From an uncultured Ruminococcus sp. (GTDB lineage: Bacteria > Bacillota > Clostridia > Oscillospirales > Ruminococcaceae): a stretch of DNA of 43,939 bases. The DNA lies in assembly GCA_900318825.1 (NCBI GenBank), contig ONMB01000004.1, forward strand, positions 70,389 to 114,327, written 5' to 3'. The notes beneath the pieces were generated by a model. It saw only the letters and a list, made by a program, of their open reading frames with translations, had not been told where the DNA came from and searched no databases. Positions 6,432 to 40,264 of this stretch are shown piece after piece. The translations under genes were made by a program, and so were the position numbers. How positions within the stretch are numbered: position 1 is the stretch's first letter; every line of letters starts with the position of its first letter.

Positions 6432-8057
<1,626 letters not shown>

Positions 8058-27905: not shown

Positions 27906-27973
27906 TATAGTCTCTGTCTATAATAAACAATAATCCTTTTGTATTGGACAAAAGCCTATCTGTATGGTATGAT
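27906..27973 (+). promoter_or_regulatory. Conserved dyad promoter A, before the ABC transporter
   Basis: Dyad TATAG-N7-CTATA(A) (27906-27923), six bases, then ATAATCC (27930-27936), TTTTGTAT, -35 TGGACA (27945-27950), 17 bases and -10 TATGAT (27968-27973). The same parts with identical spacing recur at 34500 and 37476. The dyad is centred about -65 and the ATAATCC block reaches the -35, the two-site layout of LysR-type activators. The dyad resembles the streptococcal MET-box (TATAG-N7-CTATA). Confidence 0.8.
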
Positions 27974-28004
27974 TAGTTCATCGAAGAAAACAGGAGTGAA
28001 GAAC

Positions 28005-28055
28005 ATGAAAAATTACAGATACATCATTAACTCGGAGCGAATGCGATGTTGCTGA
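28005..28055 (+). CDS. Putative 16-residue leader peptide ending Cys-Cys
   Basis: A short ORF encoding MKNYRYIINSERMRCC starts at ATG 28005, eight bases after GGAG, about 25 bases into the predicted transcript from promoter A. Two Cys codons directly precede the stop, so ribosomes could slow here when cysteinyl-tRNA is scarce. No convincing terminator was found between it and the transporter gene at 28129; control could act through downstream RNA structure or translation. The gene-free stretch 27746-28128 otherwise holds only the trp terminator and promoter A. Confidence 0.45.
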   Translation: MKNYRYIINSERMRCC

Positions 28056-28128
28056 ACGTTTGCTTCATAAGGTATCAATAATTTGTAATAACTTGAAATC
28101 AATAATGATGTTTTGAAAGGTGATAAAT

Positions 28129-29346
28129 ATGAAAAATAACAAGATCAGATTTGCTTCTATACTCGCAGCTTTAGCGCTGCTCACAGGATGTAACGGCCTC
28201 AACAATACTTCGAGCTCAAGCTCAAAGAAGGCTGCAACGACAGAGTCGGCTCAGACAACAGAAGCATCTGCTTCTGAGGACGAAAAGGACTGCTGCAAGG
28301 ACGGCAGCACAGATTGCTGCACAGAAACTGCGGCTGACTGCTGCGGAGATGATGCAGAAACAGTTCTCGGCGAGCCTGAAAAGAGCGACATCAATATAGG
28401 CTACCTCAACTCGACTGCTCATCTGCTTGCATTTGTTGCCAAGGAGGAAGGATACTTCGAGGAGGAGGGACTGGACGTTACTCTCACACAGCTCTCCAGC
28501 GCTTCCGAGCTTGTGAACGGACTTGAAGCTGATAAGCTCGATGCAGCATTCATCGGTTCAGTACCGACACTCACATTCCAGAGTCAGGGCCACGATATTT
28601 CAATATTCGGCGGTGCGATGACCAACGGACACGGCTACGTCATCAAGTCCGAGTACGCTGACAAAGATGAGCTCGGAGTTGAGATACTCAAGGGCAGAAA
28701 CGTTGCTTCCGTAAAGAACAGCGTTCAGGACGCAGAGCTCCAGATACTTCTCAAGAATGCCGGCATCAAGATAGGTGAGGGTGATGACGAGGTCAATATC
28801 GTTTACTTCGACAGCCAGAAGGACGCTTATGCTGCACTCATGAACAAGTCTATCGACGCAGCTTCAGTATACTCACCCTATGCTTCACTTGCCAAGTCAC
28901 AGGGCTACAAGGTAGTTTACTACTGCGCTCACGAAAAGGCTCTTGAGAACCAGCCCTGCTGCCGTCAGGTCGCAACAACTTCTGCACTCAGCAATAATCC
29001 TAATACATATATAGCTCTTGAAAGAGCATTCATAAAGGCTTACCGTTTCACACAGACCGACCATGACGCAACTGTCAAGGACGTAAAGAAGTACATTGAC
29101 ATTGATGAGGACTTCATCGAGACAGAGGTTTACGGTGGATACAGCGTTTCAAGCCCCGATCCCGACAAGAAGGGTACTCTCACTCTCAAGGATACGATCG
29201 TTGAGCTCGGTTACACAGAAGATTATGATATCGAGCCTCATTACAACACTGACATCTATAAGAAGGCACTTGACAGCATACTTTCTGAGAATTCTTCTGA
29301 TGATGTCTACAAATCACTGAAGGAGCATTTCGATGACTACGAATAA
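28129..29346 (+). CDS. ABC transporter substrate-binding lipoprotein (NitT/TauT type)
   Basis: Extracellular lipoprotein that delivers a small anion to the permease. The signal peptide ends in the lipobox LLTGC with lipidated C21. A Ser/Thr/Glu-rich linker then carries three DCC motifs exactly eight residues apart (C55-C56, C63-C64, C71-C72), which is unusual. The periplasmic-binding fold begins near residue 87 (INIGYLNSTAHLLAFVAKEEGYFEEEGLDV), the pattern of SsuA/TauA/NrtA-like proteins, and has a further QPCCRQ motif. The start is ATG 28129 with AAAGGTG upstream. It overlaps the ATPase gene by 14 bases. Substrate is unknown: sulfonate or another organosulfur compound would suit the neighbours, while the shared promoter links it to 2-oxoacid and acyl-CoA enzymes. 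Confidence 0.85.
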   Translation: MKNNKIRFASILAALALLTGCNGLNNTSSSSSKKAATTESAQTTEASASEDEKDCCKDGSTDCCTETAADCCGDDAETVLGEPEKSDINIGYLNSTAHLLAFVAKEEGYFEEEGLDVTLTQLSSASELVNGLEADKLDAAFIGSVPTLTFQSQGHDISIFGGAMTNGHGYVIKSEYADKDELGVEILKGRNVASVKNSVQDAELQILLKNAGIKIGEGDDEVNIVYFDSQKDAYAALMNKSIDAASVYSPYASLAKSQGYKVVYYCAHEKALENQPCCRQVATTSALSNNPNTYIALERAFIKAYRFTQTDHDATVKDVKKYIDIDEDFIETEVYGGYSVSSPDPDKKGTLTLKDTIVELGYTEDYDIEPHYNTDIYKKALDSILSENSSDDVYKSLKEHFDDYE

Positions 29347-30151
29347 GATAGAAATTAAAAATCTGACTGTCAACTACATCGAGAACAAGAAGAGCTTCAA
29401 CGCTCTTCACGATGTATCGTTCGGCGTTGGCAATGGAGAGTTCGTGAGCGTTATCGGCGCGAGCGGCTGCGGAAAATCCACTCTCCTGAGCGTCCTCGAA
29501 GGACTTTACGCTCCGGCAGGCGGAACAGTTCAGATCGACGGAAAGGAACTTCACGGCACAGGTACAGAGCGCGGAGTAGTGTTTCAGCACTACTCGCTCT
29601 TCCCGTGGATGACTACAAGAAAGAATATAGAGTTCGGCATCAAGCAGTCCCGCCGCGACGTAAAGCGCAGCGAACGTGCAAAGATAGCAGATGAATTCCT
29701 TACCAAGGTCGGACTCTCCGGCTTTGGCGGTAAATATCCCTCACAGCTCTCTGGCGGTATGCAGCAGCGTGTCGCTATCGCAAGAGCACTCGCTATGGAT
29801 ACGGAGATACTCCTCATGGATGAGCCTTTCAGCGCTATCGACGCAAAGAACCGTGTTATCCTTCAGGAGCTCCTTCTCAAGCTCTGGGAGGGCGACGGTA
29901 CTGAGGAGCGTAAGACAGTCGTATTCGTTACCCACGATATCGACGAGGCTATCCTTCTCTCTGATAAGATAGTAGTTCTCACAGCTCACCCGGGTACTGT
30001 AAACGAGATAGTAAATGTTCCGTTCGAGCGTCCGAGAAGCCGTTCCGAGCTTGTAAAGACCGACGAATACGGAAAATTCCGTAACAGACTCCTCTCCCTG
30101 CTTTACAATGACATTGCCGAGCGTATCGGCGGAGAAGAGGTGGTATTATGA
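29333..30151 (+). CDS. ABC transporter ATP-binding protein (SsuB/TauB type)
   Basis: Powers the importer from the cytoplasmic side. 272 residues. Walker A GASGCGKSTLL, Q-loop VFQHYSLFPW, signature LSGGMQQRVAIARAL, Walker B ILLMDEPFSAID and the switch His in VFVTHDIDEA are all present. It starts inside the binding-protein gene and its stop overlaps the permease start in ATGA, so the three components are coupled. Confidence 0.94.
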   Translation: MTTNKIEIKNLTVNYIENKKSFNALHDVSFGVGNGEFVSVIGASGCGKSTLLSVLEGLYAPAGGTVQIDGKELHGTGTERGVVFQHYSLFPWMTTRKNIEFGIKQSRRDVKRSERAKIADEFLTKVGLSGFGGKYPSQLSGGMQQRVAIARALAMDTEILLMDEPFSAIDAKNRVILQELLLKLWEGDGTEERKTVVFVTHDIDEAILLSDKIVVLTAHPGTVNEIVNVPFERPRSRSELVKTDEYGKFRNRLLSLLYNDIAERIGGEEVVL

Positions 30152-31068
30152 CACTCAAAAAACGCTATCTGCGTGTGGCACACCTGCTGTTCATAGCACT
30201 GCTTCTTATACAGCTTCTTCCGGATAAATCAGCAAATCCTGCTTATACGAACTCGCTGATATCATTTGCGATAGGTACTGAAGTCGTTGTACTCGCTGTT
30301 TCCGCACTTATCAAGAAGGAGGAGAGCCTTGCACTTCTGGTGGATATTGCAGGCTTTATATACATACTTCTTGGAATATGGTCACTGGCTACGGCGAAGT
30401 TCGACTATCTCAATCCGCAGCTCTTCCCGGCACCCGGCAGAGTAATACACCAGTTCGTTGTGGACAGAGACAAGATCTTCGTAAACGTAAAGAGCTCTCT
30501 CCAGACCATAGTCAAGGGCTTCCTGCTGGCAGTTGTCATCGCAGTCCCGCTCGGACTTTTTGTTGGCTGGAGCGCAAGACTCGGCAGTGCGGCTACATAC
30601 ATCACGAAGTTTTTCAGTTCGATACCGCCTATCGTGTACATTCCCTACGGCATCGCACTTCTCCCGACACTTAAATCAGTATCGGTGTTCGTTATCTTCC
30701 TTGCAACATTCTGGCCTGTATTTGCTGGAACAATGAGTGGTGTGCTCAATGTTGACAAGAGGATAATCGACTCGGCAAAGGTGCTCAATGTCAGCAAGCC
30801 TGAGATGCTGTTCAGAGTAATACTTCCGGCATCGCTTCAGCAGATATTCCTCGGCTGCAATCAGGGACTCAGCGTTTCATTCATACTCCTCACCTCTGCT
30901 GAGATGATAAACGCCAAGGACGGTATGGGCTACTATGTCAAGAACTACTCGGACTTCGGCGACTATACAAGAACTATAACAGGACTTCTCGTTATCGGCT
31001 TTGTCGTTATAGGAGTTACATTCCTGTTCAACAAATTCCAGAACCGACTCTTAAAGTGGAAAAGATGA
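30148..31068 (+). CDS. ABC transporter permease (SsuC/TauC type)
   Basis: Membrane channel of the same importer. 306 residues with two N-terminal hydrophobic segments (HLLFIALLLIQLL and FAIGTEVVVLAVSAL) plus a third near residue 75, then the standard permease core. The family EAA-like loop appears as DSAKVLNVSKPEMLFRVILPASLQQIFLG. The N-terminal extra segments make it longer than typical SsuC (about 250-260). Confidence 0.92.
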   Translation: MTLKKRYLRVAHLLFIALLLIQLLPDKSANPAYTNSLISFAIGTEVVVLAVSALIKKEESLALLVDIAGFIYILLGIWSLATAKFDYLNPQLFPAPGRVIHQFVVDRDKIFVNVKSSLQTIVKGFLLAVVIAVPLGLFVGWSARLGSAATYITKFFSSIPPIVYIPYGIALLPTLKSVSVFVIFLATFWPVFAGTMSGVLNVDKRIIDSAKVLNVSKPEMLFRVILPASLQQIFLGCNQGLSVSFILLTSAEMINAKDGMGYYVKNYSDFGDYTRTITGLLVIGFVVIGVTFLFNKFQNRLLKWKR

Positions 31069-31085
31069 ATTATATATATAAGACT

Positions 31086-31130
31086 AAATATCCGGAGAAC
31101 GCCGCAGTTTTGTTCTACGGATATTTATTT
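31086..31130 (+). terminator. Intrinsic terminator of the ABC transporter operon
   Basis: AAATATCCG (31086-31094) pairs with CGGATATTT (31118-31126), with inner GAAC/GTTC pairing, followed by ATTTTAT. It separates the transporter from the next promoter. Confidence 0.75.
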
Positions 31131-31189
31131 TATGTATGGATATGAAGTCCGGAAGCTCAAACGGCAATTTATACTAATCATACCTAAAT

Positions 31190-31262
31190 AATAGGAAAAG
31201 TCTGTGGATATTGCCGATTATTAGATTTTCCTATTGACAAGATATGATATGAGTGGTATAAT
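31190..31262 (+). promoter_or_regulatory. Promoter and flanking operator-like repeat of the mcc operon
   Basis: TTGACA (31234-31239), 17 bases and TATAAT (31257-31262) form a consensus promoter. A perfect 10-bp inverted repeat, AATAGGAAAA (31190-31199) and TTTTCCTATT (31226-31235), has its right arm running into the -35. GATAGGAATA recurs just after the start site. These look like operators of a repressor; the protein is unknown. Confidence 0.7.
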
Positions 31263-31313
31263 ACATATAGTTCCGATAGGAATACAAAGAATTAACAGAA
31301 AGGATCGCTGATT

Positions 31314-31418
31314 ATGAGAACTTGTATGATGTGTTGTTGTATGTGTATTGAAGCAGATGTTCGTATCCCGCATATCTATGCTCAGCGATGTTGCGCTGTT
31401 TCTGATGTCACTGAGTAA
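31314..31418 (+). CDS. Cys/Met-rich leader peptide of the mcc operon
   Basis: A 34-codon ORF starts at ATG 31314 after AGAAAGGA. It begins MRTCMMCCCMC and later has Arg-Cys-Cys, giving seven Cys and four Met in total. It lies about 50 bases downstream of the -10 and is followed within 20 bases by an intrinsic terminator and then genes for converting methionine sulfur to cysteine. This is the classic layout of a translational attenuator: ribosomes stalling at Cys or Met codons would let downstream genes be transcribed. CCCGCAT (31367-31373), about 20 bases past the Cys run, can pair with the first arm of the terminator with one bulge and is a candidate antiterminator strand. Too short for routine gene callers. 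Confidence 0.75.
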   Translation: MRTCMMCCCMCIEADVRIPHIYAQRCCAVSDVTE

Positions 31419-31437
31419 TTACAGCTATTATGCTGCT

Positions 31438-31473
31438 ATGCGCGGAGTGCGGACTGCATTCTGCGCATTTTTT
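31438..31473 (+). terminator. Attenuator terminator of the mcc operon
   Basis: A 12-bp stem, TGCGCGGAGTGC (31439-31450) with GCATTCTGCGCA (31456-31467), two wobbles, loop GGACT, is followed by six T. It ends 17 bases before the first structural gene and after the Cys/Met leader ORF. Confidence 0.88.
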
Positions 31474-31490
31474 ATGTTCTGGAGGAATTT

Positions 31491-32387
31491 ATGATAGATG
31501 AAAGAGAAAGCGTGACCGCTAAGATATGTGCGTTCGTCAGGGCGTGGCATTCAAACTACTCAAGGGATAAGATATACGACGATTACCTTGCCTACGATTT
31601 TATGGGAAAGGCTGAGTACGACAGCATTTACAGCCTGATAAGCACAGGTCTTGACGGTAAACTCAGCCTTCACCGTGAAGATACAGAACAGGTCATCGGC
31701 GAATACTTTGCACCGATACCGCTGTCAAGGATACACTTCAACGAGAGCAGACTTGCAGATTTCGCAGCTGAAAACGGTAAGATACAGTACGTTATATGCG
31801 GCGCCGGTTCAGACACGTTCTCGTTCCGGAACGACAACGCGGATATCGAGGTTTTCGAGATAGATCACCCTGACACTCAGCGCTACAAGCTGGAAAAAAT
31901 ACGCGAGCTCGAGTGGAATATCCGTCCTAATGTACATTATGTGTCGGTCGATTTTGAACGCGAGCGAATGTGCGACAAGCTGCTCGCAGCCGGTTTTGAT
32001 CCGGCAAAAAAGACTTTTTTCAGCATACTCGGAGTCACATATTACCTCACGCTCGATGTGTTCACGGACACTCTCAGACAGATGGCTGAGCTTTCCGCAC
32101 TTGGCAGTGCAGTAGTATTCGACTACCCGATAAGGAACGGCGACTTCCCGAGGCGAGTTCATAAACTTGAACAGATCACGGGAGCTCTCGGTGAGGTCAT
32201 GCGCGGCGGCTACGATTATAATGAGGTTTCCCGCGCACTGTACTCGCTCGGTTTCCAGATAGATACCTATATGCCGCCTGAGAAGGTCCAGCGTGAGTAT
32301 TTCGACGGCAGAGAGGACAGATTAAAAGCATTCGAAAACGTCAGCCTGATATCGGCAACTTACACCGCAGGCTATGATTATGAATAA
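31491..32387 (+). CDS. SAM-dependent methyltransferase, leucine carboxyl methyltransferase-like family
   Basis: 298 residues. A Rossmann-type SAM-binding region YVICGAGSDTFSFRN and acidic strand end EVFEIDHPDTQRYKLEKI are typical of the LCMT/PPM family, followed by FFSILGVTYYL. The acceptor substrate is unknown. It is first in an operon with mccB and mccA, right after the Cys/Met attenuator, with GGAGG five bases before ATG. In Bacillus subtilis a methyltransferase gene (yrrT) likewise heads the mcc operon, so this protein may use SAM to form S-adenosylhomocysteine at the start of methionine-to-cysteine conversion, though it appears to be from a different family. Confidence 0.82.
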   Translation: MIDERESVTAKICAFVRAWHSNYSRDKIYDDYLAYDFMGKAEYDSIYSLISTGLDGKLSLHREDTEQVIGEYFAPIPLSRIHFNESRLADFAAENGKIQYVICGAGSDTFSFRNDNADIEVFEIDHPDTQRYKLEKIRELEWNIRPNVHYVSVDFERERMCDKLLAAGFDPAKKTFFSILGVTYYLTLDVFTDTLRQMAELSALGSAVVFDYPIRNGDFPRRVHKLEQITGALGEVMRGGYDYNEVSRALYSLGFQIDTYMPPEKVQREYFDGREDRLKAFENVSLISATYTAGYDYE

Positions 32388-32417
32388 ACTAACGATTGAA
32401 TTAAAAGGAGAATTATT

Positions 32418-33578
32418 ATGAGTAAATTTGCAAATACAGAAACAGCACTTATCCACGGAGGCATCTCCATTGACGAGCGTACAGGCGCTGTAAATATCCC
32501 GATATACCAGACCTCGACCTACAAGCAGGACGGTCTTGGAAAAATGCGCGGCTATGAGTATTCCCGCACCGGAAATCCTACCCGTGAGGCTCTTGAAGCT
32601 CTCATCGCTGAACTTGAAGGCGGCGTTGCAGGTTTTGCATTCGCTTCCGGAATGGCAGCTCTCACAGCGGTTCTCAGTCTGCTCCACAGCGGCGACAGAG
32701 TTCTCATATCGAGCAATGTTTACGGCGGTACCTTCCGTCTGCTCGACAAGGTATTCGACCATTTCTCGATAAATTACACCATTGCCGATACAACAGACCT
32801 GAGCGTTTACGAGAGCCAGATAACAGACGACGTTAAGGCGGTCATCATCGAAAGCCCGGCAAATCCGCTCATGACTGTCACTGACATAAAGGCAGTCGCT
32901 GAGGTCTCACACAAGCACGGACTCCTCGTTATCGTAGACAATACATTTATGACTCCTTATCTTCAGAAGCCGCTTGAGCTCGGTGCGGACATCGTTGTTC
33001 ACAGCGCTACCAAGTACCTCGGCGGTCACAGCGATGTCGTTTCCGGACTCGCAGTTGTAAATTCAAAGGAGCTCGCTGAAAAGATAGCTTTCATTCAGAA
33101 TTCGACAGGCGGAGTTCTCGGACCGTTCGACTCCTTCCTGCTTATCCGCGGTATCAAGACTCTTGCAGTACGCATGGACAGACACGTTTATAATGCCGAA
33201 AAGGCTGCTGAGTTCCTCACAGCTCACAAGGCTGTCAAGAACGTTTACTATCCCGGTCTTGAAAATGCTCAGGGCTACGCAGTCAACCGCAGACAGGCAA
33301 AGAACGGCGGTGTTATGATCTCGTTTGAGCTCCATGAGAACTACGACATAAACAAATTCTTCGAGAGCCTTGAACTCGTTTCGCTTGCTGAGAGCCTTGG
33401 CGGAGTTGAGTCGCTCGTATGCCACCCTGCAACGATGACACACGCTTCCATACCGGCTGACATACGCAAAAAAGTCGGCATCACCGACGGTCTGATCCGC
33501 CTCTCGACCGGTATCGAGAACATTGAGGACATTCTTTCAGACATTGCACAGGCTATCGAAAAGGCTGAGATAAAGTGA
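32418..33578 (+). CDS. mccB: Cystathionine gamma-lyase / gamma-synthase family enzyme
   Basis: PLP enzyme of trans-sulfuration, 386 residues. Visible: YQTSTYKQDGLG, YEYSRTGNPTREALE, the FASGMAA substrate motif, and the PLP lysine in SATKYLGGHSDVV. Gamma-lyase (MccB) and gamma-synthase (MetB/MetI) cannot be separated by these motifs. The adjacent MccA-like gene and the SAM methyltransferase argue for the lyase, releasing cysteine from cystathionine. AAAAGGAG lies before ATG 32418; mccA follows after 9 bases. Confidence 0.85.
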   Translation: MSKFANTETALIHGGISIDERTGAVNIPIYQTSTYKQDGLGKMRGYEYSRTGNPTREALEALIAELEGGVAGFAFASGMAALTAVLSLLHSGDRVLISSNVYGGTFRLLDKVFDHFSINYTIADTTDLSVYESQITDDVKAVIIESPANPLMTVTDIKAVAEVSHKHGLLVIVDNTFMTPYLQKPLELGADIVVHSATKYLGGHSDVVSGLAVVNSKELAEKIAFIQNSTGGVLGPFDSFLLIRGIKTLAVRMDRHVYNAEKAAEFLTAHKAVKNVYYPGLENAQGYAVNRRQAKNGGVMISFELHENYDINKFFESLELVSLAESLGGVESLVCHPATMTHASIPADIRKKVGITDGLIRLSTGIENIEDILSDIAQAIEKAEIK

Positions 33579-33587
33579 GGTAAGACC

Positions 33588-34499
33588 ATGAAATACTATG
33601 ATTCAATGCAGGCTCTCATCGGAAATACTCCGCTCGTGAGACTCAGTAATATTGCAGACACAGAAGGCGTGAACGTTTTCGCAAAGCTGGAGCTCTATAA
33701 TCCCTCCGGCAGCGTCAAGGACCGTACCGGTCTCTATATGATCGAGGACGCAGAGCGCCGCGGTATCCTCAAGCCCGGCGGAACTATCGTTGAAGCTACT
33801 GCGGGCAATACAGGTCTTGGAATAGCTTTTGCCGGACTTAACCGCGGATACAGGATAATCTTTGTTGTACCCACAAAATTCTCTGCTGAAAAGCAGTCTC
33901 TGCTCCGTGCACTTGGTGCGGAGGTGGTGAATACTCCCCGTGAGGAGGGAATGCTCGGAGCTGTCAGAAAGGCTGAGGAGATCAAGGCTCAGATACCCGG
34001 TTCGGTCTCGCTGGAGCAGTTCAAGAATCAGAGCAATCCTCTCGCGCACTATGAGACTACCGGCAGGGAGATATATGAAGCTCTCGACGGTAATATCGAC
34101 TACGTTGTTGCTGGTGCGGGAAGCGGCGGCACTTACACCGGAATACTCCGCTACATCAAGGAGAGAAATCCGCAGACAAAGGGCATTCTCGCTGATCCTG
34201 TCGGCTCGACTATGGGCGGCGGTGAACACTCCGACTACAACATTGAGGGCATCGGCAACGACTTCATCGCTGAGACAATGGATATGTCCCTTGTTGACAC
34301 CGTTGTCAAGATAAACGATGATGAGGCGTTCAACACAGCACGGCTTCTTGCTTCAAAGGAAGGCGTTATTGCAGGCTCGTCATCGGGAGCGGCTATGGCA
34401 GCTGTCCTGAAGCTCATAAAGAGCGGTGCCAAGGGCAATATCGTGACTGTATTCCCCGACCGCGGCGACCGCTATTTCAGCACAGGTCTCTACGACTGA
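33588..34499 (+). CDS. mccA: Cystathionine beta-synthase / cysteine synthase family enzyme (MccA-like)
   Basis: PLP enzyme, 303 residues. The PLP lysine lies in NPSGSVKDRTG, and the phosphate loop in GAGSGGTYTG. EATAGNTGLG, EKQSLLRALGAEVVNTPREE, GGGEHSDYNIEGIGNDFI and VTVFPDRGDRY resemble the MccA (YrhA) subgroup of Bacillus more than classical CysK, so condensation of homocysteine with (O-acetyl)serine to cystathionine is the likely reaction. Classical O-acetylserine sulfhydrylase remains possible. Its stop lies directly against the dyad of conserved promoter B. Confidence 0.87.
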   Translation: MKYYDSMQALIGNTPLVRLSNIADTEGVNVFAKLELYNPSGSVKDRTGLYMIEDAERRGILKPGGTIVEATAGNTGLGIAFAGLNRGYRIIFVVPTKFSAEKQSLLRALGAEVVNTPREEGMLGAVRKAEEIKAQIPGSVSLEQFKNQSNPLAHYETTGREIYEALDGNIDYVVAGAGSGGTYTGILRYIKERNPQTKGILADPVGSTMGGGEHSDYNIEGIGNDFIAETMDMSLVDTVVKINDDEAFNTARLLASKEGVIAGSSSGAAMAAVLKLIKSGAKGNIVTVFPDRGDRYFSTGLYD

Positions 34500-34567
34500 T
34501 ATAGATCCAGTCTATAACTGAAAATAATCCTTTGGTATTGGACATACTGCTGTAATTGGAGTATAAT
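34500..34567 (+). promoter_or_regulatory. Conserved dyad promoter B, before the 2-oxoacid oxidoreductase operon
   Basis: TATAG-N7-CTATA(A) (34500-34517), six bases, ATAATCC (34524-34530), TTTGGTAT, -35 TGGACA (34539-34544), 17 bases and TATAAT (34562-34567). Spacing is identical to promoters A and C. The dyad begins one base after the mccA stop codon. Confidence 0.82.
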
Positions 34568-34598
34568 CAGATCATACCAGTTTGATAGGAGAATTGCT

Positions 34599-35138
34599 AT
34601 GGCAAATAGTAAAAATACAGAGCTGAAAGAGATACTCTGGCTCGGACGCGGCGGTCAGGGAGCCTTTACAGCCGCCAAGCTGCTCGGTGCGGCATATACA
34701 ATAGATGACGATAATAAGTATGGACTTGCATTCCCGTCCTTTGGTCCCGAACGCCGCGGAGCTCCGGTAAGAGCCTTCACAAAGCTCGATACAAAGCCTG
34801 TCGTAGACAGGAGTCAGACCGAAAAGGCTGACTATATAGTGATACTTGACGATACGCTCTATGCGCCGCAGTTCAGAGAACTTCTCATGGACGGCGGAAA
34901 GCTCATCGTCAACTCTAAAAAAGGTATTGAAGGCGTTCTTACCTTCGACGCTGAGACCATTGCGGCGGAATTCAGACTGCCTACGGTCAATACAGTAATG
35001 CTCGGACTCCTCGTTGGTATTTCCGGAGTGATAACTGCTGAGAATGCAGTCGAAGCTATAAAGGATCATATGCCTAAGAAGATACAGGAACGAAATATCA
35101 ATGCGCTGCTTAAAGCCGCAGAGGAGGCTGTTCGATGA
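34599..35138 (+). CDS. 2-oxoacid:ferredoxin oxidoreductase, gamma subunit
   Basis: 179 residues, the family of PorC/VorC gamma chains: LWLGRGGQGAFTAAKLLGAA and FPSFGPERRGAPVRAF are typical. It is first of four overlapping genes (gamma, delta, alpha, beta), the order of the ancestral four-subunit pyruvate and 2-ketoisovalerate oxidoreductases. Together these interconvert a 2-oxoacid plus CoA with acyl-CoA, CO2 and reduced ferredoxin. Substrate cannot be read from the sequence. It has GGAG before ATG 34599 and overlaps delta in ATGA. Confidence 0.9.
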   Translation: MANSKNTELKEILWLGRGGQGAFTAAKLLGAAYTIDDDNKYGLAFPSFGPERRGAPVRAFTKLDTKPVVDRSQTEKADYIVILDDTLYAPQFRELLMDGGKLIVNSKKGIEGVLTFDAETIAAEFRLPTVNTVMLGLLVGISGVITAENAVEAIKDHMPKKIQERNINALLKAAEEAVR

Positions 35139-35428
35139 GACCTTACATAAGAGAAAAGAAGGACTTCACATTTGATGAAGTCCCTGAAAATACATCATTT
35201 GAAGCCGGCTATCTCACTACCGTCAACAGCGGTTGGCGCAGTATAAGACCTGTCATAAACAGCGAAAAATGTAAGGGCTGCGAGCAGTGTTACCTTTACT
35301 GTCCGGACGGAGTCATCTCGATAGAGGACGGCAAAGCGGTCATCGACTACGACTTCTGCAAGGGCTGCGGTATATGCGCTAAAATATGCAAAATAGGTGC
35401 GATAGAAATGGAGGCGGAGCGCAAATGA
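35135..35428 (+). CDS. 2-oxoacid:ferredoxin oxidoreductase, delta subunit (2x 4Fe-4S ferredoxin)
   Basis: 97 residues. Two ferredoxin motifs, CKGCEQCYLYCP and CKGCGICAKICK, bind two 4Fe-4S clusters that carry electrons from the thiamine-diphosphate centre to soluble ferredoxin. The second motif ends in Cys-Lys rather than the usual Cys-Pro. It overlaps both neighbours by ATGA. Confidence 0.93.
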   Translation: MRPYIREKKDFTFDEVPENTSFEAGYLTTVNSGWRSIRPVINSEKCKGCEQCYLYCPDGVISIEDGKAVIDYDFCKGCGICAKICKIGAIEMEAERK

Positions 35429-36597
35429 GCAAAAAATTCTTATCAGGCAACGAAGCCTTCGCTGAGGGCATACGCCTTGCGCGTCCGCAGGTCATTTCAG
35501 CATATCCGATAACTCCGCAGACGATAGTTGTGGAGCGTCTTTCAGAAATGGTCGAGGACGGCAGTCTCAATGCCGAGTATGTTCACGTTGAATCCGAGCA
35601 CTCCGCGCTTTCATGTGCGATAGGTGCAAGTGCAGCCGGCGCAAGAGCCTTCACGGCAACTTCCTCACAGGGACTCCTCTATATGGCGGAATGTCTCTAC
35701 TACGCGGCAGGCGGCCGCTTCCCGATCGTTATGATGAACGCCGACCGTTCGACTGCTCTTCCATGGAACATCTACGGTGACCAGCGCGACAGCCTTTCAC
35801 AGCTAGACAGCGGCTGGATACAGGCGTATGCCGAGAACGCTCAGGAGGCACTCGACCTCGCGCTTATGAGCTACAAGATCGCTGAGAACAAGGCGGTCTC
35901 AACACCGTATATGGCTAACCTCGACGGTTTCATTCTCACACATACATACGAAACAGTCGAAATTCCCGACCGCGAACAGGCAGACCGTTTTCTTCCGCCT
36001 TATGAGACGGATAACCGCATAGACTTTGATAACCCGAAGAATATGGCATTCTCGGCAGGTCCTGACACCAACTACATCTTCAAGTACAAGGAGCACGAAG
36101 GCGTTCTTGCAGCGAGAGATGTGATAAACGAGACCGAGAAGGAGTTTGCTGAGATTTTCGGCAGGGAATATACCGGCCTGACTGAGAACTACCTCACCGA
36201 TGACGCAGATTATGTCATCGTGACACTCGGCAGTATTGCCGGATTGTGCCGCGAGACGGCTGATAAGCTCCGCGAACAGGGCGTAAAGGCAGGCGTAGTC
36301 CGTATACGCTATATGCGTCCGTTCCCGAATGAGGAACTCGCAGAAGCTCTGAAAAATGTCAAGGCTTACGGAGTTCTCGAAAAGGACATCAGCTTCGGCA
36401 ACGAGGGTACAGTATTCACAAATGTCAACTCCGCACTCAAAAAGGCAGGAGTGAATGTTCCCGGCTATGATTTTGTAGGCGGACTCGGCGGCAGAAACAT
36501 TTCTCCCGCTGACATTGAAAAGATATATTCAGACATCGAAAAGGGTACTGACAGTGTTAATTTCATTGGCATAGGAGGCGGAAACAATGGCAAATAA
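35425..36597 (+). CDS. 2-oxoacid:ferredoxin oxidoreductase, alpha subunit
   Basis: About 390 residues. The pyrimidine-binding part has the family motif YPITPQTIVVERLSE and the conserved HVESEHSALS and TSSQGLLYM. The start is ATG 35425 (MSKKFLSGNEAF) within ATGA of the delta stop, with GGAGGCGGAG upstream; a longer frame from 35386 lies inside delta. It overlaps beta by 11 bases. Confidence 0.94.
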   Translation: MSKKFLSGNEAFAEGIRLARPQVISAYPITPQTIVVERLSEMVEDGSLNAEYVHVESEHSALSCAIGASAAGARAFTATSSQGLLYMAECLYYAAGGRFPIVMMNADRSTALPWNIYGDQRDSLSQLDSGWIQAYAENAQEALDLALMSYKIAENKAVSTPYMANLDGFILTHTYETVEIPDREQADRFLPPYETDNRIDFDNPKNMAFSAGPDTNYIFKYKEHEGVLAARDVINETEKEFAEIFGREYTGLTENYLTDDADYVIVTLGSIAGLCRETADKLREQGVKAGVVRIRYMRPFPNEELAEALKNVKAYGVLEKDISFGNEGTVFTNVNSALKKAGVNVPGYDFVGGLGGRNISPADIEKIYSDIEKGTDSVNFIGIGGGNNGK

Positions 36598-37480
36598 AGT
36601 CGCAGACAGCATTTCGCGCGAGGAATTCTTCTACGGACACAAGGCTTGTGCAGGCTGCGGCGGAAGTCTCGCTGTAAGGGCGGCACTCAAGGTCCTCGGA
36701 CCGAATGCAGTATCGGTTCTCCCGGCAGGCTGTATGTCAGCGGTAGGCTTTAACTTTCCGCAGCTGTGCTTTTCCAATAACTCGATAATCTCCACATTTG
36801 CCGGAACAGCTTCCATGCTCACAGGAGTTGAGGCAGGACTCCGTGCAAGAGGTTACAAGGACTTCACAGCAGTTGGCTTTGCAGGTGACGGCGGTACAGC
36901 GGATATCGGTATACAGGCACTTTCCGGTGCTATCGACCGTAACGACAACATCATCTACATCTGCTACGACAATGAAGCATATATGAATACCGGCATACAG
37001 AAGAGCGGTCTGACACCTTTTGGCGCAAAGACCACAACAACTCCAGCCGGTGCGAATATCCACGGAAATATCCGCCCCAAGAAGAATATGTTCGAGATCG
37101 CAGCAGCTCACGATATTCCCTATGCGGCGACTGCAAGTGTGGGCTATATCTATGATTTCATTCAGAAGGTGCGCAAGGCTTCTCAGATACAGGGCACAAA
37201 GTATATACACGTTATCGCGCCCTGTCCGACCGGCTGGGGCGTTGCTCCGGACGAGACTGTGGACATTGCCAAGGAAGTTGTGGACTGCGGTCTGTGGTAT
37301 CTTGCCGAGTACGAGAACGGTGAGTTCAGACTCAACCACAAGCCGAAGGAGTTCACAAGCGTTGAGGACTATCTGAAAAAGCAGGGAAGATTCAAGCACC
37401 TGACTGATGAAGATATAAGTATAATCACAGCTTCCCGAGATAAGAAATGGGAGTTCATCAATAAGAATTTTGAGTTATAA
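36587..37480 (+). CDS. 2-oxoacid:ferredoxin oxidoreductase, beta subunit
   Basis: 297 residues; binds thiamine diphosphate and an iron-sulfur cluster. Cys ligands appear in HKACAGCGGSLA and in AGCMSAVGFN, and the diphosphate/Mg motif in GDGGTADIGIQALSGAIDRN...YDNEAYMNTGIQ. The C-terminal Cys of the CPTGW motif is present. Its stop codon lies inside the dyad of promoter C, so regulatory and coding sequence overlap. Confidence 0.94.
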   Translation: MANKVADSISREEFFYGHKACAGCGGSLAVRAALKVLGPNAVSVLPAGCMSAVGFNFPQLCFSNNSIISTFAGTASMLTGVEAGLRARGYKDFTAVGFAGDGGTADIGIQALSGAIDRNDNIIYICYDNEAYMNTGIQKSGLTPFGAKTTTTPAGANIHGNIRPKKNMFEIAAAHDIPYAATASVGYIYDFIQKVRKASQIQGTKYIHVIAPCPTGWGVAPDETVDIAKEVVDCGLWYLAEYENGEFRLNHKPKEFTSVEDYLKKQGRFKHLTDEDISIITASRDKKWEFINKNFEL

Positions 37481-37543
37481 GAACAGCTTATAACTCATCA
37501 TAATCCTTTGGTATTGGACAAATGCAGAAATTGGCTGTATAAT
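37476..37543 (+). promoter_or_regulatory. Conserved dyad promoter C, before the PaaK-type ligase
   Basis: TATAA-N7-TTATA(A) (37476-37493), six bases, ATAATCC (37500-37506), TTTGGTAT, -35 TGGACA (37515-37520), 17 bases and TATAAT (37538-37543). The dyad half-sites are changed symmetrically from TATAG/CTATA to TATAA/TTATA, so pairing of the dyad is kept. Confidence 0.82.
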
Positions 37544-37593: not shown

Positions 37594-38934
37594 ATGAGCA
37601 GAGATATAAACAACAAATTCTGGAACGAGGAGCTTGAAACTCTTCCCCGTGAGGAGCTGCAGAAGAGACAGCTCGAGGATCTCAAGGAGATCGTAAAGTT
37701 TGCCTACGACCACGCTCCCTACTACAAGCGTTCATTCGATGAGGCAGGCGTTAAGCCCGAGGACATCAAGACTCTCAAGGACATCGAGAAGTTCCCGTTC
37801 ATCAACAAGAAGACTCAGCGCGACACTCAGGGCGTTGGTTCATTCCTCGGCGAGCTCGCAGCAGTACCCGAGGAGGACGTAGTGTTCATTTCAACATCGT
37901 CCGGTTCAACAGGTGTACCTACAATGAGCCCTTTCACAAAGAAGGATTTCGACGAGTTCCAGGACACTGAGAGCCGCTGGTTCTGGCAGATAGGAATGAG
38001 ACCGAACGACCGTTACGTTCACGCCCTCAACTTCTCACTCTACGTTGGCGGACCTGATGTAATCGGCGCTCAGAACCTCGGTGCTTTATGTATCTGGGGC
38101 GGTACTCTCCCGAGCGAGAGACTTCTCTTCATTCTCAAGACCTACCAGCCTACCGTTATCTGGACTTCACCTTCCTACGCTTGGCAGCTCGGCGAAAAGG
38201 CTGTTAAGGCAGGCTACGATCCGAGAAAGGACTTCAACATCAAGAAGATCATCGTTGCCGGTGAGCTCGGCGGTTCTATCGACGCTACAAGAAAGGCTAT
38301 CGAGGATCTCTGGGGTGCAGAGGTATACGACTTCTACGGTCTGTCTGACATTTTCGGTGCTTGCGCTGCACAGTGCGAATACCACGACGGACTCCACATC
38401 GCAGAGAACCACATTCTCGTTGAGACTGTTGACATTCACACAGGCGAGATACTCGAACCCGGTCAGACTGGTGAGCTCGTATTCACGACTCTCCGCAAAC
38501 ACGCTCGTCCGCTTATCCGCTTCAAGACAGGCGACATCGGACGCATCGACGTTACTCCCTGCAAGTGCGGACGTACACACGGCAGAATACATATCCTCGG
38601 CAGAAAGGACGATATGTTCATCGTTTCCGCTGTAAACGTATTCCCGAGCGACATCGAGGCTGTTATCCGCGAGCAGAGCGGTATCACAGGCGAGTACCTT
38701 ATCCGTATCTTTGAGAAGGACTTCACAAACAAATACGCAGTTGAGATCGAGAGATCCGCTGACAATACAAAGACCGATGATGAGGTAGCTGAGCAGATCA
38801 GTGCAGCACTCAAGGCTCGTACAGGTGTTAAGCCTGCAAGAGTTGTTGTACATCCCGACGGCGGTCTGAATACACGTTCCGAGCACAAGTCCAGACGTGT
38901 TATCGACGAGAGAAATATTGACTACTCTATCTGA
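37594..38934 (+). CDS. paaK: Phenylacetate-CoA ligase family protein
   Basis: AMP-forming acyl-CoA ligase, 446 residues. It has the PaaK P-loop STSSGSTGVPT, the DFYGLSDIFG motif, the hinge GRKDDMFIVSAVNVFPSDIE and a C-terminal lysine in EHKSRRVIDERN. PaaK-type ligases near 2-oxoacid:ferredoxin oxidoreductases usually act on aryl acetates, but other short carboxylates are possible. The separate copy of the conserved promoter shows co-regulation with the oxidoreductase without being in its operon. GGAGG lies nine bases before ATG 37594. In-frame Cys residues in CKCGRTH are a small zinc-like cluster seen in many PaaK relatives. Confidence 0.9.
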   Translation: MSRDINNKFWNEELETLPREELQKRQLEDLKEIVKFAYDHAPYYKRSFDEAGVKPEDIKTLKDIEKFPFINKKTQRDTQGVGSFLGELAAVPEEDVVFISTSSGSTGVPTMSPFTKKDFDEFQDTESRWFWQIGMRPNDRYVHALNFSLYVGGPDVIGAQNLGALCIWGGTLPSERLLFILKTYQPTVIWTSPSYAWQLGEKAVKAGYDPRKDFNIKKIIVAGELGGSIDATRKAIEDLWGAEVYDFYGLSDIFGACAAQCEYHDGLHIAENHILVETVDIHTGEILEPGQTGELVFTTLRKHARPLIRFKTGDIGRIDVTPCKCGRTHGRIHILGRKDDMFIVSAVNVFPSDIEAVIREQSGITGEYLIRIFEKDFTNKYAVEIERSADNTKTDDEVAEQISAALKARTGVKPARVVVHPDGGLNTRSEHKSRRVIDERNIDYSI

Positions 38935-39097: not shown

Positions 39098-40264
39098 ATG
39101 CCAGAACTTTCAAACCGAACAGCTACTTTTACCGATTCCGTCATCAGACGTATGACGAGAATTTCAAATAAATACGGCGCAGTAAATCTCTCACAGGGCT
39201 TCCCGGATTTTGAGCCGCCCAGAGAGATACTCGACCGCCTTGCACAGGTCACAAATGAGGACTTCCACCAGTATTCGATAACATGGGGTGCACAGAATTT
39301 CCGCGAGGCTCTTGCAGAAAAGCAGTCACGTCTCATGGGAAGAAATATAGATCCCAACGGCGAGATCGTAGTTACCTGCGGCAGCACAGAGGCTATGATG
39401 GCAGCTATGATGTCCGTTACAAATCCCGGCGACAAGGTGATCGTGTTCTCGCCTTTCTATGAGAACTACGGTGCTGATACGATACTTTCCGGCGCTGAGC
39501 CTATATACGTTCCGCTGATACCGCCGGAATTCTCGTTCGATGCGGGTGTTCTCGAAGCTGCTTTTAAACAGCACCCCAAGGCGCTGATACTGTGTAATCC
39601 GTCAAACCCCTGCGGAAAGGTCTTCACACTTGAGGAACTTCAGGTGATCGCAGACCTCGCAAAGAAGTACGACACATTCGTCATCACCGACGAGGTCTAT
39701 GAGCACATCGTCTACGCTCCGCACAAGCACGTTTATTTTGCAAGCCTGCCTGATATGTGGGAGAGAACTATTTCGTGCTCGTCACTGTCAAAGACTTACT
39801 CAATAACCGGCTGGAGACTCGGCTACGTTATCGCGCCGCCGCATATCATAGACACTGTGAAAAAGGTCCACGACTTCCTTACAGTAGGAGCTGCTGCTCC
39901 CTTGCAGGAGGCTGCCGTGACAGGACTGCGTTTCGGCGACGATTACTACAAGTGGCTCCAGGACAAGTACACCGAAAAACGCGACCTGTTCCTGAACGGT
40001 CTCGACCGCATCGGCATACAGCATACAGTACCGCAGGGAGCTTACTACATACTGCTCGACATCTCCGAATTCGGTTACAGGAGCGACCTTGTATTCTGCG
40101 AGAAGCTCGCAGAATATGTGGGAGTAGGAGCAGTGCCGGGTTCGAGCTTCTTCAAGGAGCCTGAGAACCGCTATATAAGGCTGCACTACGCCAAAAAGAA
40201 TGAAACGCTCGAGAGTGCTCTCGAACGCCTTAACGATATACGAAAGAAAATGCCTAAGGAGTGA
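39098..40264 (+). CDS. Class I aminotransferase (methionine/aromatic type)
   Basis: PLP-dependent transaminase, 388 residues. Signatures are LSQGFPDFEPP, the NPSNPCGK motif, DEVYEHIVY and the PLP lysine in SSLSKTYSITGWRLGY; the C-terminal RYIRLHYAKKNETL is typical of the KAT/YbdL-like subfamily, which favours methionine and aromatic substrates. luxS follows after 4 bases, suggesting a methionine-recycling link; the nearby oxidoreductase and PaaK also allow a role with 2-oxoacids such as phenylpyruvate. The start ATG 39098 follows ACCGGAGG. Confidence 0.88.
   Translation: MPELSNRTATFTDSVIRRMTRISNKYGAVNLSQGFPDFEPPREILDRLAQVTNEDFHQYSITWGAQNFREALAEKQSRLMGRNIDPNGEIVVTCGSTEAMMAAMMSVTNPGDKVIVFSPFYENYGADTILSGAEPIYVPLIPPEFSFDAGVLEAAFKQHPKALILCNPSNPCGKVFTLEELQVIADLAKKYDTFVITDEVYEHIVYAPHKHVYFASLPDMWERTISCSSLSKTYSITGWRLGYVIAPPHIIDTVKKVHDFLTVGAAAPLQEAAVTGLRFGDDYYKWLQDKYTEKRDLFLNGLDRIGIQHTVPQGAYYILLDISEFGYRSDLVFCEKLAEYVGVGAVPGSSFFKEPENRYIRLHYAKKNETLESALERLNDIRKKMPKE

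Follow-up and report, generated by a model that had tools for sequence, protein, structure and literature searches.

The window analysed here is a stretch of 43,939 nucleotides from an uncultured Ruminococcus sp. (contig ONMB01000004.1 of assembly GCA_900318825.1, positions 70,389 to 114,327). It carries three similar promoters, called sites A, B and C (Table 1). Site A precedes an operon for an ABC importer, including its substrate-binding protein (SBP), a methyltransferase of the LCM type, a cystathionine gamma-lyase/synthase family enzyme (CGL) and a CysK-like enzyme. Site B is found in front of the genes for the four subunits of a 2-oxoacid:ferredoxin oxidoreductase (POR), and site C precedes the gene for a PaaK-type ligase, which is followed by an aminotransferase (AAT) gene. 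An earlier reading of the sequence letters (the original prediction) had proposed that these promoters form a LysR-type regulon. Our analysis indicates that this switch, common to several operons, is very probably under the control of one LysR-type protein, which governs genes for sulfur amino acids.

All three sites share the layout TATAR-N7-YTATA, N7, ATAR-N7-GTAT, TGGACA, 17 bp and TATRAT, and every block described at 27906, 34500 and 37476 is found there. Two of the sites touch the stop codon of the preceding gene, as had also been described: site B begins one base past the CysK stop, and the TATAA half-site of site C includes the stop codon of the POR beta subunit gene. In the available genome (2.02 Mb, 84% complete), sites A, B and C are the sole exact matches to TATA-N8/9-TATA-N6-8-ATAATCC. 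A relaxed search located a fourth site at C59:61740-61807 on the same contig, with one mismatch to the relaxed pattern and three to the full pattern. In total, the genome holds at least four sites, and its relatives hold more.

The sequences ATAATCC and TTTKGTAT, originally listed as separate blocks, are indeed present, but can be read as a second, imperfect copy of the first dyad. In a profile of 163 sites, ATAR-N7-GTAT at positions 25-39 has the same layout as ATAR-N7-YTAT at positions 2-16, shifted 23 bp downstream. Some letters of the second dyad belonged to the pattern used for collecting the 163 sites; letters outside that pattern are conserved as well (A at position 27 in 85%, A or G at position 28 in 99%, and T at position 37 in 88%). 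The first dyad includes T-N11-A, with T at position 3 and A at position 15 in 163/163 sites, although both are part of the search pattern. The two half-sites had been thought to change together so that the dyad is kept. This holds as a tendency but not strictly: positions 5 and 13 are G-C in 92 sites, A-C in 26, A-T in 22, G-T in 21 and another combination in 2, which is a loose co-variation (chi-square p=0.0007 on 161 standard cells).

With a transcription start predicted seven bases past the -10 element (position 75), the first dyad has its centre at about -66 and the second at about -43, the latter ending right at the -35 element. Typical traits of LysR-type regulons are a dyad near -65 with T-N11-A and a weaker second site that abuts or overlaps the -35 element, and LysR activators use two binding sites in an RBS/ABS arrangement. 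The two dyads look like such a pair. The sequence CATACC, present around the predicted +1 of sites B and C (about positions 34573 and 37549), recurs in many promoters that lack the leader described below, which is unusual for an initially transcribed stretch.

Chance does not account for the full pattern. There are no reversed-control matches to the full pattern in 125 genomes of the genus, and 938 kb of sequence from 60 gene clusters of relatives yielded 138 matches with at most five mismatches, where 10 dinucleotide shuffles gave 0 on average. Moreover, all 105 distinct sites with intact half-sites from the window and these clusters have a dyad gap of 7, a gap of 20 between dyad and ATTGGACA, and a spacer of 17, even though gaps of 3-11, 14-29 and 14-20, respectively, were permitted. 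The 21-base core by itself is less specific, since at most three mismatches give hits in 45/100 genus genomes together with nine reversed-control matches; 27 of the 30 loci retrieved by this core have the dyad and three do not (L006, L023 and L028).

There are 66 genomes with the full pattern among the 125 of the genus, this genome included, and 24 among 297 genomes sampled from the family, representing 14/126 genera (own genus included). PaaK orthologs are found in 63/125 genus genomes, and the 60 clusters are those of 60 of the 62 relatives with such an ortholog. The most frequent order is [site] SBP-ATPase-permease-LCM-CGL-CysK-LysR [site] POR gamma-delta-alpha-beta [site] PaaK-AAT; in some relatives POR is located elsewhere or the order differs. 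A site lies at most 420 bp upstream of 33/33 SBP genes, 41/49 POR gamma genes and 55/59 PaaK genes. For genes internal to the operons the corresponding counts are AAT 0/53, LCM 0/41, CGL 0/41, CysK 0/45, POR alpha 0/53, LysR 0/45 and ATPase 1/38. The eight POR gamma genes without a site are diverged (54-60% identity), and three of the four PaaK genes without one are also in diverged genomes, the fourth being that of L144. Other genes preceded by sites in relatives are metY, metK, further SBP genes, small open reading frames (ORFs) and a second LysR gene. From this arrangement, the operons with sites appear to be co-regulated.

No regulator gene had been noticed within the window, and this is because the candidate is located elsewhere on the same contig. 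A LysR gene at C59:61899-62807, 7.6-8.5 kb to the left of the window, is divergent from metY, and the fourth site lies between the two genes. The same divergent arrangement with an intervening site is present in the near relative L211. In most relatives' clusters the LysR gene is located immediately left of the counterpart of site B, and it follows CysK in 37 of the 43 clusters (the window counted) whose CysK is at least 80% identical. At the level of sequence, the original prediction of a LysR regulon is supported by sites in front of orthologous operons and by a LysR gene with an adjoining site. The candidate protein has the LysR substrate domain, matching PF03466 above the cut-off (47.1 bits), and probably the DNA-binding domain, as its N-terminus resembles LysR proteins of known structure, CysB and BenM among them. 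A more specific name could not be assigned from the PDB and NCBIfam, where CysB, CidR and other LysR proteins were matched and the NCBIfam scores (best 25 of 52) are far below cut-off.

The distribution of this protein follows that of the sites. Of the 66 site-bearing genus genomes, 65 encode a homolog that is at least 63% identical. Conversely, sites are present in 65/68 genomes with such a homolog (two as fragments) versus 1/57 without one, for which p is about 1e-30 with shared ancestry uncorrected. In the closest group, with homologs of 83-100% identity, 46/46 genomes have sites (this one included, and one cut by a contig end), and there are none among the 43 genomes without a homolog of at least 45% identity.

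The genes preceded by sites, as well as the sites themselves, point to sulfur metabolism. A methionine/cysteine regulon is supported because metY, metK, CGL and CysK, and metE beside some distant homologs, provide a sulfur context, and because the sites match the streptococcal MET box. MetA-type homoserine acyltransferase scores above the cut-off in 10/10 genomes searched, as would fit homocysteine formation through MetY. The cysE model gives near full-length matches in 9/10 genomes, none of which reaches the curated cut-off; in the 84%-complete genome of the window the match is only weak and partial.

The MET box is TATAGTTTSAAACTATA, for which promoter mutation provides support in the case of CmhR (PMC5359408; the articles given by PMC number are cited from excerpts), and it has been linked to MtaR/MetR (PMC2627894). 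The hint of a sulfur or methionine effector in the original prediction is borne out to the extent that the outer half-sites TATAG-N7-CTATA and their 17-bp length are those of the streptococcal box, the candidate regulator, like those of the streptococcal system, is a LysR protein, and the targets likewise concern methionine and sulfur (PMC5359408, PMC2627894). In contrast, the inner GTTTnAAAC of the streptococcal box is not conserved here. The sites do not keep to the full palindrome TATAGTTTnAAACTATA, as the inner pairs are complementary in only 57, 56 and 62 of the 163 sites. Further differences are the POR and PaaK targets, the operons with leader peptides, and the rigid second dyad and promoter spacing. 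We classify this putative system as a LysR MET-box-like regulon and not as MtaR.

Other LysR systems also control sulfur genes. The streptococcal cysteine regulator CmbR/FhuR also belongs to the LysR family, but has the operator GYGATAAAAAWWAYTTATMAC and is described as a repressor in pneumococcus (PMC5131005). Enterobacterial MetR and CysB exert LysR-type control of methionine and cysteine genes, and metR is divergent from its target metE, but the MetR site is TGAAnnTnnTTCA (PMC5002191). In the PDB, the matches to full-length CysB span residues 1-79 only.

Homologs of the candidate are also found beyond the genus. Those in named relatives (best 80 matches listed) are from Ruminococcus flavefaciens strains and rumen metagenome-assembled genomes (MAGs), followed by Lachnospiraceae and others. 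Of 55 more distant loci, 25 have a dyad with a promoter no more than 400 bp past the LysR gene, often in front of metY, and letter shuffles give 0. Plasmid homologs with 47-51% identity adjoin methionine synthase genes in Priestia filamentosa, Selenomonas ruminantium and Rhodococcus. There are TATAG-N7-CTATA boxes in Priestia filamentosa (TATAGTTTAAAACTATA, which does fit TATAGTTTnAAACTATA) and in Selenomonas ruminantium (TATAGCCAAAAGCTATA), and none in the stretch searched in Rhodococcus. A Paenibacillus homolog record carries no annotation.

Some records with homologs are of a different kind. LysR genes with 65-70% identity occur in non-Firmicute records, namely L261 (a Treponema MAG), L248, L277, L285, L288 and L290 (Spirochaetaceae and Fibrobacter), and that of L261 is accompanied by LCM, CGL, CysK and POR genes. 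These could reflect either horizontal transfer or a binning artefact. There are also 92 records of LysR homologs in phage-labelled contigs. One of these, MT838872.1, comes from human faeces and is labelled 'Bacteriophage sp.'; it is 4.8 kb long, has no annotation and contains a homolog of 61.2% identity, and it may be host DNA.

Table 1. Sites, leader and downstream genes in the window
Feature	Position	Strand	Remarks
Site A	27906..27973	+	dyad TATAG-N7-CTATA 27906-27922; second dyad ATAA-N7-GTAT 27930-27944; -35 TGGACA 27945-27950; -10 TATGAT 27968-27973; upstream of ABC importer/CGL/CysK operon
Site B	34500..34567	+	dyad 34500-34516; second dyad 34524-34538; -35 34539-34544; -10 34562-34567; upstream of POR operon
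Site C	37476..37543	+	dyad 37476-37492; second dyad 37500-37514; -35 37515-37520; -10 37538-37543; upstream of PaaK-type ligase gene
Leader ORF MKNYRYIINSERMRCC	28005..28055	+	16 codons, ends Arg-Cys-Cys-stop; between promoter A and SBP gene
ABC importer substrate-binding lipoprotein (SBP), NMT1/SsuA-like	28129..29346	+	PF13379 2.8e-26; TIGR01728 112.6 bits, below cut-off 163.5
ABC importer ATPase	29333..30151	+	PF00005
ABC importer permease	30148..31068	+	PF00528
S-adenosylmethionine-dependent methyltransferase, LCM/TIGR00027 type	31491..32387	+	PF04072; TIGR00027 142.3 bits, above cut-off
Cystathionine gamma-lyase/synthase family pyridoxal phosphate enzyme (CGL)	32418..33578	+	PF01053; best NCBIfam PRK07671 561.8 bits, below cut-off 594
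Cysteine synthase/cystathionine beta-synthase family, CysK-like	33588..34499	+	TIGR01136 337.6 bits, slightly below cut-off 344.15
POR gamma subunit	34599..35138	+	PF01558
POR ferredoxin-like delta subunit	35135..35428	+	PF00037
POR alpha subunit	35386..36597	+	NF040682 459.4 bits, below cut-off 550
POR beta subunit	36587..37480	+	PF02775; PRK11864 and PRK11865 below cut-off
PaaK-type AMP-forming acyl-CoA ligase	37594..38934	+	PF14535, PF00501; TIGR02155 280.9 bits, below cut-off 646.3
Aminotransferase (AAT)	39098..40264	+	none of best 25 of 79 families reaches cut-off; near POR/PaaK in most relatives; without own site

A short ORF with the motif [S/T][E/D/N]RM follows 62 of 174 sites, and none was found in any of 10 shuffle rounds. 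Its presence depends on the target: such leaders are found behind 44/51 SBP, 7/7 metY, 7/8 small-ORF, 2/2 second-LysR, 1/1 lone-ATPase and 1/4 unassigned promoters, and behind 0/43 POR, 0/56 PaaK and 0/3 metK promoters. The metY leader of the window's genome is MIKQHILSRLRSVVRGTDRMCGHGRCY. Among 33 SBP leaders there is synonymous codon change for Ser (TCG/TCA/TCT), Glu (GAG/GAA) and Asn (AAT/AAC), and the Arg preceding Met is CGA in all 33; therefore the peptide and perhaps also the RNA are constrained. Leader codons can pair with the ribosome-binding site of the SBP gene, with a mean longest helix of 6.42 versus at most 6.30 in 200 leader swaps. The core DNA TCNGAGCGAATGYGAYG is found in 37/125 genus genomes (reversed control 0). 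In addition, C(C)TAY is present early in the -35/-10 spacer (positions 27951-27967 in the window) of 43/50 promoters with a SERM-type leader versus 4/125 others, and is possibly a second operator. Where a site and a DRM leader also stand in front of the second LysR paralog (L070:49-969, minus strand, and L071), a regulatory cascade is possible.

Like known amino-acid attenuators, these leaders are short ORFs with regulatory codons at the end, directly upstream of an operon, and they share with cysteine attenuators a conserved short ORF with Cys codons. However, no terminator is seen by eye upstream of the SBP gene, where no scan was made, and the ERM/DRM motif here also occurs in what are apparently free-standing small transcripts of the regulon. 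In L067 (9156-9952) and in L068 (around 6628-6937, minus strand), a pair of sites is separated by about 300 bp, and both sites drive a small DRM/ERM...RC ORF. The second unit is followed by another small ORF (MCHKK... in L067), and in L067 a terminator-like hairpin can be seen by eye after each unit. Three of the small peptides were compared with Pfam and NCBIfam, which gave nothing for two and one insignificant match each for the third. Literature matches listed for the strings TDRMC/SERMRC concern gene or epigenome editing in plants and epigenetics and include no description of the leader, and there is no paper on it among those listed for leader peptide and cysteine.

Known riboswitches do not account for the site promoters, since Rfam at gathering scores reports nothing in five target loci and only a T-box in the window. 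This T-box leader (RF00230, 21546-21792, 93.4 bits against a gathering score of 93) is located just upstream of anthranilate synthase-like and trp genes. The N-terminal linker of the SBP lipoprotein contains repeated Cys-Cys pairs (CCKDGSTDCCTETAADCCGDD), and comparable stretches are found in some relatives.

Several observations weigh against a single LysR protein acting on sulfur genes. The LysR gene is not adjacent to the cluster sites in 6/43 clusters, the window's included. Sites are lacking in 3/20 genomes with homologs of 63-71% identity, and only 1/14 genomes whose best homolog is 45-59% identical have them. Among the more distant loci, 30/55 have no such site within 400 bp after the LysR gene. 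No sulfur gene is annotated near the homolog on a Roseburia plasmid, that of a Streptococcus suis plasmid (46.5%) precedes glg (glycogen) genes and lacks a box in the stretch, and that of a Priestia megaterium plasmid, which does have a box, precedes a LysE-type transporter. Moreover, CTATA-n9-TATAG has been given as a general LysR-type motif (PMC5002191), and therefore TATA-rich dyads alone are no proof of a MET box. Neither POR nor PaaK is a recognised sulfur gene, and RNAalifold found no consensus structure in a gapped leader alignment.

One alternative is that the main activator is another regulator, either a paralogous LysR with identity near 50% or a factor encoded elsewhere. In L070 and L071 the paralog has a site of its own in front, and it could share or take over the sites, and there is an example from Streptococcaceae of a LysR gene under the control of another LysR protein, CmbR acting on homR (PMC3616900). 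This alternative is nevertheless unlikely, given the presence of sites in every genome with a closest-group homolog and the position of its gene beside them in most clusters; the low count of site-bearing genomes at 45-59% identity also speaks against it.

A second alternative is that the regulon answers to branched-chain or aryl acids, the substrates of POR and PaaK, with the sulfur genes as mere passengers. The genes for POR, PaaK and the aminotransferase are together in most fetched clusters, and they offer a plausible route from acids to amino acids. However, metY or methionine synthase genes are the neighbours of several distant homologs that have no POR or PaaK in the stretch, metY and metK are among the further targets, and leaders are on the importer and metY transcripts but on 0/99 POR and PaaK transcripts, all of which makes this explanation quite unlikely. 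That the sites are merely strong housekeeping promoters whose upstream elements are AT-rich, and that they resemble each other through chance or a recent duplication, is barely credible despite their near-consensus -10 and 17-bp spacer, because shuffles and reversed controls give no matches to the full pattern, the geometry is fixed in all 105 sites while the bases between blocks vary, and the pattern is nearly confined to genomes with the LysR protein.

It is highly likely that each site combines a promoter with activator binding sites for a single LysR-type regulator, in all probability the one encoded at C59:61899-62807, with sulfur targets and an added leader layer. Sequence comparison shows how the sites are built and conserved, where the regulator gene lies and that it co-occurs with them, and that the leaders are conserved. 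It strongly supports the promoter logic, and binding, activation, effector and attenuation are what we infer from it. MetR of Streptococcus mutans is reportedly linked to homocysteine, and this compound has been reported for enterobacterial MetR (PMC5002191). A shortage of sulfur amino acids would raise the level of a co-inducer, for which homocysteine is, by analogy, the likeliest candidate. A LysR tetramer would occupy the strong dyad TATAR-N7-YTATA near -66 and the weaker ATAR-N7-GTAT near -43, 23 bp downstream and abutting the -35 element. Engagement of the second dyad would then recruit RNA polymerase and activate the promoters. The genes expressed would serve the import and interconversion of sulfur amino acids (the ABC importer, CGL, the CysK-like enzyme and MetY, and MetK in relatives), joined by the linked set of ferredoxin-dependent 2-oxoacid enzyme, acyl-CoA ligase and aminotransferase. 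For importer and metY transcripts, the Cys codons of the leader most likely form a second gate, at which the supply of cysteine would control translation.

Amino acids could be made from acids by the POR, PaaK and aminotransferase enzymes. A bolder and rather doubtful proposal is that the [S/T][E/D]RM...RC peptides are a new regulatory peptide family of this regulon, acting as cysteine-sensing or ribosome-arresting leaders ahead of genes for sulfur acquisition or, when standing alone with a promoter on one side and a terminator on the other, possibly as small trans-acting peptides or RNAs, and that methionine may be salvaged by POR, the PaaK-type ligase and the aminotransferase via reductive carboxylation of 3-methylthiopropionyl-CoA. 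Literature matches listed for methylthiopropionate, rumen and reductive carboxylation include nothing relevant, and those listed for a Ruminococcus LysR cysteine regulon include no relevant paper.

These observations supply a candidate regulator, a readable operator and a list of probable targets for the control of sulfur amino acids in rumen bacteria of the Ruminococcus flavefaciens type and, to some extent, in Lachnospiraceae. They would tie ferredoxin-dependent 2-oxoacid chemistry to the control of sulfur metabolism. They also reveal a putative leader-peptide layer, without description in family scans or in a literature search with its strings, that can be tested by reporters.

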